NCBI RefSeq assembly: GCF_002836255.1
Contig: NZ_PJAU01000061.1
Span: 62,001-126,000 of the forward strand
Length of the DNA: 64,000 nt
Source of the DNA: Colwellia sp. 75C3
GTDB lineage: Bacteria > Pseudomonadota > Gammaproteobacteria > Enterobacterales > Alteromonadaceae
Direction: 5' to 3'
The translations under genes were made by a program, and so were the position numbers. Below, in pieces: positions 18,392-26,015 of this stretch. The notes beneath the pieces are model-generated. The model had not been told where the DNA came from. It worked only from the letters and a program-made list of their open reading frames with translations, and ran no database searches. Positions within the stretch are counted from its first letter, which is position 1. Each line of letters begins with the position of its first letter.

Positions 18392-19810
18392 TTAGAACGC
18401 TGCGTTATTTGGAGTTCTTGGGAATGGTATTACGTCACGTACGTTTTGCATGCCTGTTGCATACGCTACTAAACGTTCAAAACCTAAACCGAAACCAGAA
18501 TGAGGCACTGTGCCATAGCGACGTAAATCTCTATACCAACCGTAATCTGCAATATCTAAGCCCATTTCTTCTAAGCGGCTGTCTAATACGTCAAGACGTT
18601 CTTCACGTTGGCTACCACCAATAATCTCACCAATACCTGGTGCTAAAATATCCATAGCTGCAACAGTTTTACCGTCGTCATTTAAACGCATGTAGAAAGA
18701 CTTAATATCTTTAGGGTAGTTTTGTAAAACTACTGGACCGTTAAAATGCTCTTCAGCTAAATAACGTTCATGCTCAGAGTTTAAATCTACACCCCAAGAA
18801 ACTTGGTTTTCAAATTTCTTGCCGCAGTTTTCTAAAATTGTAATAGCGTCAGTGTAATCAAGGCGAACGAAGTCAGTCTCAATTACTGAGTTCAAACGGT
18901 CGATTACTGTTTTATCTACGCGTTGTTGGAAGAAAGCCATATCATCAGCACGTTCGTCTAAAACAGCTTTAAAGACATACTTAAGCATCTCTTCGGCTAA
19001 GTCAGCTGCATCTGATAAGTCAGCAAAAGCGATTTCAGGCTCTACCATCCAAAATTCAGCTAAGTGACGAGTAGTATTAGAATTTTCTGCTCTAAAAGTC
19101 GGTCCGAAAGTATAAACTTTAGATAACGCGTTACAATAAGTCTCTACGTTTAACTGGCCTGATACGGTTAGGAAGGTCTCTTTACCAAAGAAGTCTTGGT
19201 TGTAATCAACTTTGCCTTCATCGTTACGTGGTAAGTTTTCCATATCTAAGGTACTAACACGGAACATCTCGCCAGCGCCTTCACAATCACTACCTGTAAT
19301 AAGTGGTGTGGCGATCCAGAAATAACCTTTACTGTGTAGGAATCTGTGTACTGCTTGCGCTAAACAGTTACGAACACGAGTTACTGCACCACCAATATTG
19401 GTACGTGGACGTAGATGTGCTTGCTCGCGTAAAAATTCTATACTGTGACGCTTAGCAGCCATTGGGTAAGTATCAGGGTCTTCAACAAAGCCTAAAACTT
19501 CTACTTCAGTTGCTTGCACTTCAAATGCTTGACCTTTACCAGGAGATTCAACTAAAACACCTGTTACTTTTACTGAACAGCCAGTGGTCAGTTTAAGCAC
19601 ATCGCTTTCATAATTTTCTAATTCACTAGGCACAATGGCTTGAATAGCATCAAAACATGAACCGTCATGTAATGCTAAAAATGAAATGCCAGCTTTCGAA
19701 TCACGACGTGTTCTGATCCAACCGTGGATGGTAATGCTCTCATTAACAGGGAAGTTACCTGCTAATACATCAGTGATTGATGGCTTACTACCTAAATCTT
19801 TTGTTGTCAT
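18392..19810 (-). CDS. asnS: Asparaginyl-tRNA synthetase
   Basis: A 472-residue class IIb synthetase that charges tRNA-Asn. It shows an N-terminal OB anticodon-binding domain ([26 protein letters not shown]), motif 2 ([26 protein letters not shown]) and C-terminal motif 3 ([34 protein letters not shown]). Length fits the bacterial enzyme. Its start codon lies 28 bp from the decayed recombinase at 19839, so the normal upstream region appears to have been displaced by an inserted element. Confidence 0.97.
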
Positions 19811-19814
19811 ATTC

Positions 19815-19841
19815 TTATATTTTCCAAAGGTGTTAGTTATG
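19815..19841. other. att-like sequence at asnS start (left end of element)
   Basis: The string TTATATTTTCCAAA followed closely by TGTTAGTT and ATG lies between asnS and the decayed recombinase. Closely similar strings occur at 22214-22243 (TTATATATCCAAA then TGTTAGTT and GATG), and TTATATTTCCCAA at 20983-20995 lies just before the intact recombinase. The placement suggests attachment-site copies of the serine-recombinase element. Confidence 0.5.
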
Positions 19842-19981
19842 AAAAAGCCTATTTATATTCGAGGGGTAGTTCTGTAATACAGACAGAACAAAGCGAGGGG
19901 ATTACTCGACAAATCGAAAACGTAAAGACATTCTTAAAAAGTTGTTCGGAGTATATCATTGCTTATGATGTATTTACAGAT
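19839..19981 (+). pseudogene. Truncated, frameshifted copy of the serine recombinase gene
   Basis: The first 140-odd bases align to the 5' end of the intact recombinase at 21007 by eye, for example GAGGGGATTACTCG, AAGACATTCTTAAAAA and GATGTATTTACAGAT. An A is missing from the start-proximal A run, shifting the frame, and similarity stops after 19981. This is the remnant of a related element at the same location. Confidence 0.85.
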
Positions 19982-20085
19982 AGTAAAAACTATTTTGAGG
20001 GGGGAAATTAGTATAAAACTATATTCTAAGTTGGTAATAGATATTTTCGTTTACTGACGCGGAGTTTTTCAAATGGGAGTCAGGA

Positions 20086-20132
20086 CAGTCATAAATTTAT
20101 TACAGTGTTAACACTGTTGACGCTGTCCTTTT
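20086..20132. repeat. Nested inverted repeats inside the element
   Basis: An outer AGGACAG / CTGTCCT pair encloses a palindrome ACAGTGTTAACACTGT, followed by TTTT. It could be a terminator or a recombinase- or regulator-binding site. Confidence 0.5.
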
Positions 20133-20250
20133 AAAACATCTTTACACATAGTTCTTACAATTTGGAACATCATCTAATGTTGATACGCTTACAATACAAA
20201 ATTCACTTATAAAAAGTGTAAATGAAGATTTTGATATACATGAAATTAAT

Positions 20251-20547
20251 ATGTTGACCAGATCAATTATGTTACTAGATGAGTTAGAACACTTCTCTAT
20301 TAGAAGTGGTAGCAATGGAATAGTTAATTTGTTTAATGTTGAGCATAGTGAGCTTGGTGTAGTTTTCAGGGTCGACTTAGGGAATGATACTCTCGTGTTT
20401 TTTTCAGGTAAAACCAATTCCGATTTTAAAGTTGAGTTGTACAACCATGTGGCTAAGAAAACAATTATTCAGCGTAGATTTAATTCAGCAGAAGCTACAA
20501 TAAAAGATGCCTTAACTATTCTTACTAATAGCATCTTATCTGATTAA
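20251..20547 (+). CDS. Unknown 98-aa protein, possibly 5'-truncated
   Basis: The sequence looks protein-like (SIMLLDELEHFSIRSGSNGIVNLFNVEHSELGVVFRVDLG) but I recognise no family. The frame stays open for another 99 bases upstream, to a stop at 20149, and reads plausibly (NSLIKSVNEDFDIHEIN), yet contains no ATG, GTG or TTG before 20251 and no ribosome binding site at 20251. Either translation begins at 20251 or the gene lost its true start. It is followed 41 bp later by the candidate nuclease. Confidence 0.5.
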   Translation: MLTRSIMLLDELEHFSIRSGSNGIVNLFNVEHSELGVVFRVDLGNDTLVFFSGKTNSDFKVELYNHVAKKTIIQRRFNSAEATIKDALTILTNSILSD

Positions 20548-20588
20548 GTTATTGTATTACCGAAAGTAATAAACGATAGGAAGTCCAA

Positions 20589-20963
20589 ATGTTTAATGAA
20601 GTCAGTTACAGCGACATGAACAGTAAGCAAAAAGAGAATTACAACTTCGCTCAAATTAACGCTAGGTTGGTAGGTTTTGGTTTCGAGTGTAGTTGGTTAA
20701 ACAATGACTACTTAGGAGCTGACTTCATTGCAGTTGGTTCTCAGGGAGTGCTACAAGTTCAACTTAAAAGTAGGGTCACATGTGAGCAAAAGTATAGTAA
20801 AGAATTGATCATCACTTGGATTGAATCAGATGGAACTATCTACTTTGTTCCTCATGGTATCTTATGGGACTTAATGGCTAGTAGATATGATTTTACAAAA
20901 GGATGGTCAATTGCGAACACCCCTAAATGGTTACGTGATGCATTAGCTGAATATAGGCTTTAA
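20589..20963 (+). CDS. Candidate PD-(D/E)XK nuclease-like protein
   Basis: A 124-residue protein. An N-terminal helix (KQKENYNFAQINARLVGFGFE) is followed by YLGADFIAVGSQGVLQVQLKSR, which fits a restriction-endonuclease core with Asp in GAD and a Q-x-K in the ExK position. The C-terminal part is rich in Trp and aromatic residues. AGGAAG is well spaced before the ATG. It sits between the unknown 98-aa gene and the serine recombinase as cargo of the small element. Assignment rests on motif pattern only. Confidence 0.55.
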   Translation: MFNEVSYSDMNSKQKENYNFAQINARLVGFGFECSWLNNDYLGADFIAVGSQGVLQVQLKSRVTCEQKYSKELIITWIESDGTIYFVPHGILWDLMASRYDFTKGWSIANTPKWLRDALAEYRL

Positions 20964-20977
20964 ACATCAATATTCGT

Positions 20978-21002
20978 ATTATTATATTTCCCAATAAGTA
21001 CC
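20978..21002. other. Second att-like sequence, before intact recombinase
   Basis: ATTATTATATTTCCCAA at 20979-20995 matches ATTCTTATATTTTCCAA at 19811-19827 in 15 of 17 bases by eye, ending 11 bases before the recombinase start. The recombinase-proximal location is the usual place for a phage-type attachment site. Confidence 0.4.
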
Positions 21003-21006
21003 CTTT

Positions 21007-22053
21007 ATGAAAAAAGCCTATCTTTATTCGAGAGTAAGTACCGTAACTCAGTCAGAACAAGGTGAGGGGATTACTCGGCAAATCGACAATGCTAAGACAT
21101 TCTTAAAAAATTACCCTGAATACATCATTGCTAATGATGTATTTACAGATGCCGCAAGTGGTTTTTCCGGTGCTAATTTAGAAGAAAATGCGGGACTTGG
21201 GAGCTTTATTAAAGCGGCAGAGCGAGGTGATATACCTAAAGGGTCATTACTTGTGATTGAGAGTCCCGATCGCTTATCTAGGTTAGGTATCAAGAAAGGT
21301 CAGAGAATATTTGATCGAATAATGGAATGCGGTATTGATATTGCTTTAGTTCGCTTCGGAATAATTCTAAAACATGATGATGAAAATGACTCCACTGGTT
21401 CTTTAATCGTAGCGGTTGGTCTTTATCTTGGTAACTTGGAGAGTCAACAGAAAAGCGAACGCATCAATTTTTCATTACAAAAGAAGAAAGTTGTCGCTGC
21501 TGGTGGCGAGAAATACTCAGGTAGATCGCCAGCTTGGTTAAAGCTATCTAAAGATAGAATGAACTTCGAACTAGTACCAGATAACGTCGAAGCAGTGCGT
21601 CTAATGTTCAATCTGAGAGCCACTGGTTCATCATTCGGACAAATAGAAGCTGAATTAAACAAGCGCAAGATAAAGCCATTCACGAGTAAGGCTTTAAGAT
21701 GGTACGAGGCTAGTATAAGTAAAATACTTCATTACAGGCAGGTACTTGGAGAGCAGCAATTCTATAAGATTGATAAAGATGCTGACATGATATTAACAAC
21801 ACTAGCAGCCGTTGCAACGATGCAGCGTGAGCAGCTGTTAGAAAAGCAACAAATTGGTATAGCCACAGCTAAAGCAGAAGGTAAATATAAAGGTCGTGTA
21901 CGGTCCCAGAAGACTATTGATAAGTGTATTAAGGCACTTGAGTATATCGATAAGGATTTGTCAAAAGAAGCCGCTGAAAAGGCTGCTTGCGTTGGTGTAG
22001 CAACACTATACAGGTACATTAATGAACAAGCTGCTGCAGTGGTTGTGAATTAA
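21007..22053 (+). CDS. Serine site-specific recombinase
   Basis: A 348-residue recombinase. The N-terminal resolvase domain (1-150) has AYLYSRVSTVTQSEQGEGITRQ with the nucleophilic Ser in YSRVST, and LLVIESPDRLSRLG. A middle 'recombinase' domain (about 155-250) follows, ending ASISKILHYRQVLGEQQF. Unusually, the C-terminus (about 270-345: REQLLEKQQIGIATAKAEGKYKGR, then VGVATLYRYINEQ) resembles the E-helix plus HTH tail of small Tn3/Hin-type resolvases rather than a zinc-ribbon domain. It probably mobilises the local element. Confidence 0.88.
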   Translation: MKKAYLYSRVSTVTQSEQGEGITRQIDNAKTFLKNYPEYIIANDVFTDAASGFSGANLEENAGLGSFIKAAERGDIPKGSLLVIESPDRLSRLGIKKGQRIFDRIMECGIDIALVRFGIILKHDDENDSTGSLIVAVGLYLGNLESQQKSERINFSLQKKKVVAAGGEKYSGRSPAWLKLSKDRMNFELVPDNVEAVRLMFNLRATGSSFGQIEAELNKRKIKPFTSKALRWYEASISKILHYRQVLGEQQFYKIDKDADMILTTLAAVATMQREQLLEKQQIGIATAKAEGKYKGRVRSQKTIDKCIKALEYIDKDLSKEAAEKAACVGVATLYRYINEQAAAVVVN

Positions 22054-22213
22054 AGTTACTTCAGGCCTTATAACTATATGAATACATCGTATTCGGCATA
22101 TACATCATTAGACCAAGCAATGATTAGTTTAAGTAAAATATAATAGATAATATAGCTTTGAAGCGCTATATATATAATGGATAGGTGAATGTCTAGTGTG
22201 GAATTCGATTCGG

Positions 22214-22243
22214 TTATATATCCAAAAAAACTGTTAGTTGATG
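22214..22243. other. att-like sequence (right end of element)
   Basis: TTATATATCCAAA, seven bases, TGTTAGTTGATG: the same order of blocks as the asnS-proximal sequence at 19815-19841. It lies 160 bp after the recombinase and would bound an element of about 2.4 kb. Confidence 0.5.
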
Positions 22244-22335
22244 TCGTCATGATATAGCCAAAGCTAACGACGACTATTCATGAGAAGACCCATCATGCCA
22301 GTATTATGAAACTAAATATTTAATAACTACAAAGT

Positions 22336-22797
22336 CTATCTATTAGCTAGTTTCAATACAGTTCTACCTAGCAATATCTCTAAGTCTTGGTATGCATCAT
22401 CACCAAGTTTAGAAGTGATCAAAGCAATTAACCTATTAAGTCCTGCTACGGCTAAAGGGCTTACTTTAGTATCATCGGTAGCTGTTCGTATTAACATTGT
22501 TATTATGTACCTGAATTTATCATCATCTATCGATGTATCCCATGACTTAACGAACTCTGCTCTACTATCTAACGACAACTTGCTTAGTATGTACGGAAAT
22601 ACTTTGCCAGCCAGTGCTTTAGAAAAATCATTACTTGTCTTGAAGTAACCTTGTATAGTTGAACGTCTAAAACCTGATGCCTCCGCTATAGTACCGTAAG
22701 TCAAATAGTCCCAGCCTTTATCAAAAAACATTTGAAGTATTATATCGTTCAATACTTCTCTTCGTTCCTCATATTCTTTATTTGTAATTCTTGGCAT
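22336..22797 (-). CDS. TetR-like transcriptional regulator
   Basis: A 153-residue protein with an N-terminal TetR HTH (EVLNDIILQMFFDKGWDYLTYGTIAEASGFRRSTIQGYF) and a short helical C-terminal domain, smaller than the usual 190-220 residues. AGGAG lies five bases before the ATG. It stands alone between the recombinase element and csrA. Target genes cannot be read from sequence. Confidence 0.75.
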   Translation of the reverse strand: MPRITNKEYEERREVLNDIILQMFFDKGWDYLTYGTIAEASGFRRSTIQGYFKTSNDFSKALAGKVFPYILSKLSLDSRAEFVKSWDTSIDDDKFRYIITMLIRTATDDTKVSPLAVAGLNRLIALITSKLGDDAYQDLEILLGRTVLKLANR

Positions 22798-23245
22798 TTA
22801 TACTCCTGTTGAAGCCTATTATACACAATTTTAATGAACCTTAAAAACAAGAAAAAATTTTAAAAACAATACTAAAAAGCACTTAAGCTCTTTATGTAAC
22901 ATAGCACTATAACAGCATATTGTTAGCATAAGTTTAAGCGTTGACAATTTGAAACACAGATATTAAAAAACTGTTCAAATACAATTTACATGACCAACTT
23001 GTAGTGCTAAAGCAAGATATATAATTAGTTGATGTTTATCCGAAAGTGTTTGTGTTTACGCAATATGCTATTAACTATTTGGCAAGATAATGGCGAGTGT
23101 AATAGCTAATGAATTTAACGGAGTTTATTTGATACTTATTCTGCAAGAATATGAATGATGAGCTTGTTAGTAAAGTGAAGGAGTGTAGAAATACTAGAGA
23201 TTGGAAGAAGGGATAAATACTGAGTGCGACTATTGCAGCGCTAAA
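22798..23245. other. AT-rich gene-free region
   Basis: No coding frame is supported. It contains the TetR-like gene's upstream region at the left and the 15-mer at 23033-23047 that also occurs at 7997-8011. Nothing else recognised. Confidence 0.5.
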
Positions 23246-23446
23246 TTAGCCATCACCCTCAACATTATCACTTGATTTATTAAGCTCTGTCTGAATTTTA
23301 TTAAATATCTCTTCACGATGGACAGCTATATCGTTAGGTGCGTTTATACCTATACGAACTTGGCTACCTTTTACACCTAACACAGTAATGGTGACATCAT
23401 CACCAATCATTAATGTTTCGCCTACTTTTCTAGTTAAGATAAGCAT
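23246..23446 (-). CDS. csrA: CsrA-family carbon storage regulator (accessory copy)
   Basis: A 66-residue RNA-binding dimer protein: [52 protein letters not shown]. The RNA-contacting Leu4/Arg6 start and VAVHREEI-type motif (here IAVHREEI, Arg44 region) are intact. CsrA binds GGA-containing hairpins in leaders and represses or activates translation. The ribosome binding site AAGGAAG itself contains GGA, as in autoregulated csrA genes. It is not next to alaS as the usual chromosomal copy is, but downstream of an adhesin gene, so it is probably a second copy. Confidence 0.92.
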
Positions 23447-23485
23447 GAGACTTCCTTAAGTTTTTCTAGGTATTTAAAATGTGTC

Positions 23486-23509
23486 GGTGGTGAACGAATG
23501 TCCACCACC
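23486..23509. promoter_or_regulatory. Hairpin in adhesin-csrA intergenic leader
   Basis: GGTGGTG (23486-23492) pairs with CACCACC (23503-23509). On the plus strand a T run follows; on the minus strand, where the genes lie, there is none, and the loop start forms GGA with the closing G. It could be a CsrA-binding hairpin or an RNA processing site in the csrA leader. Confidence 0.45.
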
Positions 23510-23510
23510 T

Positions 23511-23535
23511 TTTTACTTTTACTTTTACTTTTACT
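23511..23535. repeat. Hexamer TTTTAC repeat, about four copies
   Basis: A TTTTAC tandem run abuts the adhesin stop codon (minus strand) and the adjacent hairpin. Length variation here would change only the intergenic spacing. Confidence 0.7.
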
Positions 23536-24489
23536 TAGAACTGGAACTGAACACCAGCACCTGAAGATACTTCAGAGTGATCACCAGTAGTTACGTTCAT
23601 TGTCATTGATGCTGACCAGCTTTCAGTAAAGGCGTGTGCAATACCTACAGCTACAGCGCCTTCATCACCAGCGTAACCCATACCTAAACCAATAGACGTT
23701 TTACCAGCACCTGATAAGAATGGACGAGCATTGTTAATAGCATGTGTAGAAGCCATTACAGAGTCCATTTTAGTGTCTAACTCTTCAATCTCAGCAGTTA
23801 GCATATCTTGGTACTGGTCGTTGAAGTTAAACTCAGGAGCAGGAATTACTGGGTTAGTATCTTTCTGGTTACTGTTTTTAGCTTCTTCAATACGTGCAGC
23901 TAACTTAGCTGAGCCTTGGTTTTTGAACTCAGCCATACGTTCTTTAGCTGTATCACCGTTATCATGACGTGGTTCAGTTGGGATGTTGCTTGCGAACTTG
24001 TCACGTATTTCAGCTTTCTTTTCAGCAATCCAGTCAGGAGCGCCAACAACAGGAGGTAAACCACCAGTAGGAGGAGTAGGTAATTTATTACCTAATTTCT
24101 CTTTTATTTCTGCTTTCTTTTCAGCTACCCATTGACCACGAGTAGGAACTTCAGGAGCTGGTTCCGCAGGTGGTAATACCACCTCAATTGGGTCAATACC
24201 AAAGCCTGGGTCGATAGGACTAACGTTAGGTAGTTTAGACTTTATTTGATTCGCTATATTCGCTTTACGTTCATTAACCTCAGACTCAGTTAGTTGACGT
24301 GCATGCTCATTACCTTGGCCATCTTTAAATGTAATGATGTAATCACCGTTAGCATTCTCGTATATTTCAGCATCTTTACCTTGGCGTGCCATGAATGAAT
24401 TAAAAGCTGCTGCTTTCTGATCATTAGTTGCATCTGGAACTGGCTTAACAATCACATCAATTGGGTCAATACCAAAGCCTGGGTCGATA

Positions 24490-24746
24490 GGGTTAACGCT
24501 GTGTTCACGGTTATCATTGATAGCTTTACCTAGTGCATCTTTAAATTGCTTTTGGTTGCCTTCATTTAACTCAACTGGAGCTGTACCTTCTTGATATAAT
24601 GTCCATTCACCAGACATAGGGTCTTTCTGAATGAATGAATTACTGCCATTATTTTCCATTGCTTTGTTAAAAGCCGATACTTTAACGTCAGTAGAGAACT
24701 TAAGACGCTCACCTGGTTCAAGGATTGGAGTAGGTATTCCATCTTC
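24490..24746 (-). repeat. Intragenic adhesin repeat, in-frame copy
   Basis: Nearly identical to 24811-25063 (one substitution seen) except for one extra GAAT unit. The near identity implies a recent duplication and gives a template for repair of the frameshift by recombination. Confidence 0.9.
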
Positions 24747-24810
24747 CCCAAGAATTGGGTCAATACCAAAGCCAGGGTCGATAGGGTCAATACCAAAGCC
24801 TGGATCAATA

Positions 24811-25063
24811 GGGTTAACGCTGTGTTCGCGGTTATCATTGATAGCTTTACCTAGTGCATCTTTAAATTGCTTTTGGTTGCCTTCATTTAACTCAACTGGA
24901 GCTGTACCTTCTTGATATAATGTCCATTCACCAGACATAGGGTCTTTCTGAATGAATTACTGCCATTATTTTCCATTGCTTTGTTAAAAGCCGATACTTT
25001 AACGTCAGTAGAGAACTTAAGACGCTCACCTGGTTCAAGGATTGGAGTAGGTATTCCATCTTC
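24811..25063 (-). repeat. Intragenic adhesin repeat, frameshifted copy
   Basis: First copy in transcription order, shorter than its partner by four bases at 24950-24957, which closes the adhesin frame. Confidence 0.9.
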
Positions 25064-25153
25064 TGCCGCTACGTTTAAAGAAGCTAATACAGTTAATGCT
25101 ACGATTGATTTTCTAAAGTTCATTGGGATATTTCCTAATTAATTAAATTTTAT

Positions 25154-25165
25154 GTACGATGTACG
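25154..25165 (-). promoter_or_regulatory. 12-mer operator-like site before adhesin
   Basis: GTACGATGTACG, 31 bases from the adhesin ATG. On the minus strand it is followed directly by ATAAAAT, a -10-like element. A half site CGTACG lies at 25175-25180. An identical 12-mer precedes the neighbouring small gene. Confidence 0.6.
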
Positions 25166-25169
25166 ATAT

Positions 25170-25364
25170 CTAGACGTACGAAATTTTTTCTGAATAGACC
25201 TTGACGATTCTTTGTATCCTAGTGGATGATGAGAATCGTATGCCCTTTCTGATTTTTATCTGCGCGGCTTGAAACAAGTCCGTCTTACTGAAATCAGATA
25301 ACTGGATAAACTCGCTACCATCTAGGCTTAAAGTTGTAGCTCCCTTGTTTTTCTCAATGCTCAA
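25170..25364 (-). CDS. Small hypothetical protein upstream of adhesin
   Basis: A 64-residue basic protein (SIEKNKGATTLSLDGSEFIQLSDFSKTDLFQAAQIKIRKGIRF) starting at TTG 25364 with AGGGGG six bases before it. No family recognised. A DNA-binding regulator is possible given its basic C-terminal half and the matched 12-mers before it and before the adhesin, but no helix-turn-helix is clear. Confidence 0.5.
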   Translation of the reverse strand: MSIEKNKGATTLSLDGSEFIQLSDFSKTDLFQAAQIKIRKGIRFSSSTRIQRIVKVYSEKISYV

Positions 25365-25397
25365 GATAACCCCCTGAATTTCAATGAGACTATTATC

Positions 25398-25409
25398 GTA
25401 CGATGTACG
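25398..25409 (-). promoter_or_regulatory. 12-mer operator-like site before 64-aa gene
   Basis: An exact copy of GTACGATGTACG, 34 bases from the TTG start of the small gene; on the minus strand it abuts GATAAT, a good -10 match. Same geometry as the copy before the adhesin. Confidence 0.6.
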
Positions 25410-26015
25410 GTATTAATCTATGGTGTTTTGGTAATGATTAGTAAGGTTTTGTAATAATTTGTTGATCAGGAATGTTCGTTCAAGGGAAGAGGTTTGAGCT
25501 ACTCTAGTGGAGTTCATTCTCTTAGCTAATTAGCAGCTTTGTTTTTATCAATCTAGCTCAGGTATCTTCACCCCATGAAATGTAGACCCCATAGAAGCTC
25601 ACATAATTAGATTGAATATAAGCTTGAAATACCCAGTACTTAGCGATGGTATTGCAGTATTTTAACTTGTAGGGGAGGTACTAGGACAATACAATGGGGT
25701 ATAGAAATAGAGTTTTTAGCTTACAGGAAATAGTGTGAATAATGAATTAGCATCATTTATGTTAGGTACTAACTAATCAATAACATCAGTAATTGATATA
25801 ACCGACATTTAATGACCTCTTATTCTTATGAAATTGATTGAAAATTGCTTTATAGCCAGTGAAAAATTCGATCCCATTCACGTAAAACGTGCAGATAAAT
25901 TTAATCTCACCACTAATATGCTAAAAATGGATGATATGTTACCGTGACAAGGCGTAAATGCAATGCTTAATTGCACTGAAAAATGACAAATAGCGTCCAA
26001 TAGCAATAAATAACC
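25410..26015. other. Gene-poor region with a 39-codon open frame
   Basis: The only protein-like frame is 25828-25947, which begins MKLIENCFIASEKFDPIHVK. It may be a truncated gene start; I cannot name its family. The rest holds nothing I can support. Confidence 0.4.

Follow-up and report, generated by a model that had tools for sequence, protein, structure and literature searches.

Does a difference of one tetranucleotide unit between two copies of a repeated segment make a gene phase-variable, or is it an ordinary recent mutation? The question is raised by a putative adhesin gene of Colwellia sp. 75C3, which an earlier note described as a contingency locus in the OFF state. The window analysed here is a stretch of 64,000 nucleotides (NZ_PJAU01000061.1, positions 62,001 to 126,000), and all coordinates refer to it unless a locus is named. 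The comparison covers one genome of the species, a draft of 60 contigs.

The gene lies on the minus strand at 23535–25123. From start codon to stop codon it measures 1589 bp, which is not divisible by three, and it is interrupted by a frameshift. The 5′ open reading frame (24887–25123, minus strand) has a signal-peptide-like start, preceded by a plausible ribosome-binding site (AGGA), and encodes 78 residues, of which 58 are native and 20 are out of frame before the stop. The downstream ORF (23535–24938, minus strand) encodes 467 residues; its frame stays open up to 24956, giving 473 stop-free codons (23535–24956) that comprise the second copy of a duplicated module, the stalk and the complete C-terminal YadA anchor. 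The two frames overlap by 70 bp (24887–24956). Scans around the gene for sigma-70 promoters and terminators gave nothing above shuffled sequence. A hexanucleotide repeat, TTTTAC × 4.3 at 23511–23536, falls on the stop codon and runs toward the neighboring csrA-like gene.

Read directly from the window, GAAT occurs three times at 24629–24640 and twice at 24950–24957. The earlier note had placed this one-unit difference between two near-identical segments correctly. The tract is inside the adhesin reading frame, so that a change of one unit shifts the frame. The note was also right that translation ends after 78 residues in the ×2 copy, and since that copy throws the adhesin out of frame, the assembled allele is predicted to be OFF. 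The in-frame product, given there as 540 residues, would be about 530 (58 + 472).

Pfam family PF03895 occupies residues 409–467 of the 467-residue product, at its extreme C-terminus, with an E value of 5.7e-9 and a score above the gathering threshold. A phmmer search also matched the solved YadA anchor structure 2lme (E 0.0068). Based on these two matches, the assignment of the C-terminus to a trimeric autotransporter-type adhesin is well supported. The passenger matched no Pfam family, and no YadA-type head or stalk was recognised in it. The N-terminus, MNFRKSIVALTVLASLNVAA, resembles a signal peptide as judged by eye. It is out of frame with the anchor owing to the 4-bp difference, and the assembled gene has no signal peptide in the anchor's frame. 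In three homologues (L062, L018 and L063) the signal-like N-terminus and the anchor share one frame.

The two GAAT tracts belong to a module that is present in tandem. With approximate ends, copy 1 spans 24820–25063 and contains GAAT × 2, and copy 2 spans 24499–24746 and contains GAAT × 3 in frame. Apart from the 4-bp indel, 235 bp match exactly between the copies: 121 bp on one side of the tract, the 8 bp of tract that they share, and 106 bp on the other side. The wider match extends over 290 bp at 97% identity (E 2e-139), with five further mismatches near one end, and the copies sit in distinct flanks. The duplication certainly exceeds chance. With no other difference across the 235 bp, either the unit was lost recently or homogenisation has recently made the copies alike. 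A diverged third module carries GAAT × 2 at 24393–24400, where AAT TCA TTC ATG (Asn-Ser-Phe-Met) is ordinary coding sequence and keeps the frame.

Whether the tract is special can be judged from its expected frequency. The window contains one tetranucleotide ×3 tract, and its dinucleotide shuffles average 1.55 ± 0.92 such tracts; for ×2 tracts the counts are 212 observed and 216 in shuffles. The genome-wide count, which rests on 464 kb, with 400 kb of the 5.4-Mb genome taken by stretches, gave 11 tracts of three or more units where 9.4 ± 2.2 were expected. Thus a tract of this length is what genome composition leads one to expect, both in the window and in the 464 kb. Across all 5.4 Mb of the genome there are two occurrences of GAATGAATGAAT and six of its reversed control. 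On the coding strand, the GAAT × 3 string reads AAT TCA TTC ATT CAG, that is, Asn-Ser-Phe-Ile-Gln. None of seven homologous genes has a tetranucleotide ×3 tract, and the aligned site in L062 is free of the repeat.

Published thresholds lie higher. PhasomeIt uses a cut-off of at least 5 units for tetranucleotide phase variation (PMC6321876). In Haemophilus influenzae the maximum expected by chance is three units (PMC2651432, Table 2), and the YadA-domain genes tabulated in that study have 13–31 tetranucleotide units. The description of the locus as a classic contingency-locus layout could therefore not be upheld: two and three units are at background frequency and below the published cut-off, and the aligned relative is tract-free. 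The adhesin gene showed nothing resembling a tract dedicated to phase variation. Switching is still conceivable with few units, since hsdM of H. influenzae has a pentanucleotide tract of only four units that is reported to switch at a high rate (PMC2651432).

Long tetranucleotide tracts are present elsewhere in the genome. ACTA × 11 (L079:13850–13893) lies between fabF-like and fabG-like genes, and TTAG × 5 (L078:18852–18871; G000 contig C58) immediately precedes a gene for a secreted glycoside-hydrolase-like protein. They are the two longest tracts seen in the genome sample, and both are intergenic; no tract of four or more units is expected by chance in the sampled 464 kb.

No copy of the adhesin gene was found in the 38 congeners searched or in the 294 family members sampled. 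Genome contigs, viral contigs and phages gave no same-species or close homologue beyond the window's own gene, and the plasmid search gave one, on a plasmid of Vibrio sp. THAF190c (L018). With this Vibrio homologue as query, matches were found in 30 of 394 order-level genomes, and the listed matched stretches of those 30 contain no internal stops. Each of the seven homologous genes examined over its whole length is one continuous ORF. The module that is duplicated in the window is present once in L062, written in other codons, and the repeat tract is missing at the aligned point. L064 has an independent tandem module duplication of 227 bp (L064:3673–4647), 98.7% identical, gap-free and in frame, so module duplication recurs in the YadA-anchor gene family.

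The gene rides on an insertion that separates asnS from its native upstream region. The left end is the direct repeat ACATCAGTGATTGAT at 19767–19781, within the asnS codons for (S)ITDV, where synteny with eight congeners breaks; the right end is the direct repeat ACATCAGTAATTGAT at 25783–25797, which contains the displaced native asnS start. The two 15-bp repeats, ACATCAGT(G/A)ATTGAT, differ by one mismatch. In the eight congeners the site is empty, and the homologue of 19779–19781 joins directly to the sequence from 25783 onward. Since asnS runs straight into that sequence in all eight, the approximately 6.0 kb in between (19782–25782) is a clean insertion, a genomic island with direct repeats at its ends. 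Both the island and the adhesin gene were missing from the congeners searched. The island sits in the first codons of asnS and replaces its start and promoter region. The asnS start is now supplied by the island end; what remains of the native start, at the right end, is an 11-codon stub, MSVISITDVID*.

Besides the adhesin gene and small further ORFs, the island encodes a serine recombinase, a TetR-family regulator and a CsrA-like protein. The recombinase (21007–22053, plus strand) is probably the integrase of the island. The N-terminal ~250 residues resemble integrases (phrog_95) of the large-serine-recombinase type and share 33% identity with a further recombinase encoded by the genome; the C-terminal 88 residues show 73% identity to the end of a 189-residue resolvase (G214, L035). 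These matches suggest that an integrase-type N-terminus and a small-resolvase C-terminus have been fused in frame. A recombinase with such a rearranged look would fit an element in decay. The search for its relatives in genome contigs returned none.

The TetR-family regulator (22336–22797, minus strand) has a LuxT_C domain. Here it shares the island with the adhesin gene, and a LuxT_C-like TetR gene adjoins the adhesin homologue at L018:1541–2005, L063:2555–3106 and L064:4825–5316; the pairing of such a regulator with a YadA-anchor gene, found in four loci of different genomes, is recurrent and unannotated. The CsrA-like gene (23246–23446, minus strand) lies directly 3′ of the adhesin gene on the same strand and is an extra gene of its kind. 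No CsrA match was found beside the homologues in L018, L062, L063, L064 and L065, and asnS was seen beside none of these five.

The most likely model for the present state of the gene is a module duplication on a strain-specific island followed by a very recent 4-bp loss, giving an ordinary fresh null allele; we assign it a probability of roughly 0.6. A serine-recombinase island of about 6.0 kb would have brought the YadA-type adhesin gene into the 5′ end of asnS, and one module of about 107 codons would have been duplicated in tandem and in frame. A single 4-bp unit would then have dropped out of the first copy, the most likely cause being slippage during replication between neighboring ATTC words, which on this model exist only as codons for Asn-Ser-Phe-Ile-Gln. 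As translation stops after 78 residues, no anchored adhesin is expected. The order of these events, slippage as the mechanism and the lack of function are what we infer from the sequence. In principle the null allele can revert, whether by slippage, by gene conversion or by a deletion that joins the two copies. Decay beyond the indel is absent, and a switchable gene would therefore look the same today.

The indel may instead be an artefact of assembly or consensus calling: both copies could be truly alike, or the population mixed, with the 235-bp exact repeat collapsed or mis-phased so that copy 1 came out one unit short. The draft state of the assembly (60 contigs) and the intactness of the remainder of the gene are in keeping with this, as is the fact that the indel is the lone difference between otherwise identical 235-bp stretches. 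However, the distinct flanks and the five mismatches near one end indicate that the assembler did separate the copies. Sequencing errors rarely take the form of a 4-bp indel away from homopolymers, and the neighboring asnS and bioA genes align nearly full length to those of congeners with no frame breaks. We regard an artefact as unlikely, while giving it appreciable weight. A contribution from translation is barely credible. The 70-bp overlap would allow a programmed −1 ribosomal frameshift to rejoin the frames, but it contains no in-frame X_XXY_YYZ heptamer, and the intact homologues need no shift. Internal initiation at 24938 could yield the 467-residue ORF product, which would lack a signal peptide and thus not be exportable as an autotransporter.

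That the gene is a real low-copy contingency locus, switched ON and OFF by GAAT slippage or by recombination or gene conversion between the modules, is improbable in our judgment. Trimeric autotransporters are known targets of simple-sequence-repeat phase variation, as in the H. influenzae YadA-domain genes (PMC2651432), and a four-unit pentanucleotide tract is reported in the same study to switch fast. The downstream frame is intact, the 235-bp direct repeats are long enough for homologous recombination, and the genome does contain long tetranucleotide tracts (ACTA × 11, TTAG × 5). Yet two or three units are at background level where the published YadA-domain genes have 13–31. The tract is accounted for by codons and is not conserved in the aligned relative, and the two longest tracts seen in the genome are intergenic. 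A minimal device driven by recombination, in which gene conversion or deletion between two modules differing by one 4-bp unit switches the island adhesin with no long tract, is very doubtful. The earlier note's proposal that slippage or recombination between the copies would restore the full adhesin holds in part: the frame is regainable in principle, but deletion between the copies would give a one-module protein and not one of about 530 residues. Exchange between the copies can equally fix the ×2 form. Revertibility holds for any short direct repeat and therefore confers no contingency-locus status.

A recent null allele thus remains our preferred reading, and the locus serves as a worked case against calling small repeat-number differences contingency loci without strain data; the label is unwarranted here because the tract is at chance level and codon-derived. 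The locus also draws attention to a group of small YadA-anchored proteins, little described so far, whose genes are repeatedly found next to those of LuxT-like regulators in Vibrio and further genomes. In the present genome such a gene is carried on a 6-kb island, and the island has captured the start of asnS, an essential gene for a tRNA synthetase.

Like the trimeric autotransporter adhesins (YadA, type Vc, PF03895), the protein has an anchor that reaches the last residue, a signal-peptide-like N-terminus and a modular, repetitive passenger. It departs from them in that the passenger has no recognised Pfam head or stalk and the gene is frameshifted as assembled. Its intact homologues (L018, L062, L063, L064 and L065) share the anchor, with the module in L062 and the TetR neighbor in L018, L063 and L064, but each is one uninterrupted ORF.

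SXT in prfC is a known example of an island that inserts into the beginning of a conserved gene and supplies it with a new start. The islands with a dusA integrase do likewise and have direct repeats at their ends (PMC4482086). The present island differs in targeting asnS and in carrying a serine-type recombinase that is apparently chimeric. The literature search found no asnS-targeted islands.

The badA island of Bartonella henselae combines a trimeric adhesin, duplicated near-identical modules and an island setting; frameshift alleles of badA abolish expression in some strains, and modules are duplicated within BadA (PMC8859334). That gene is 8.7–13.2 kb long, with pseudogene partners and strain-to-strain data, whereas the present one is a 1.6-kb gene with one duplicated module in one genome. 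The YadA-domain genes with simple sequence repeats in H. influenzae biogroup aegyptius resemble it in having a tetranucleotide unit and a YadA-domain product (PMC2651432). They carry 13–31 CAAG or CAAA units, in contrast to the two or three chance-level units found here in copies of a coding module.
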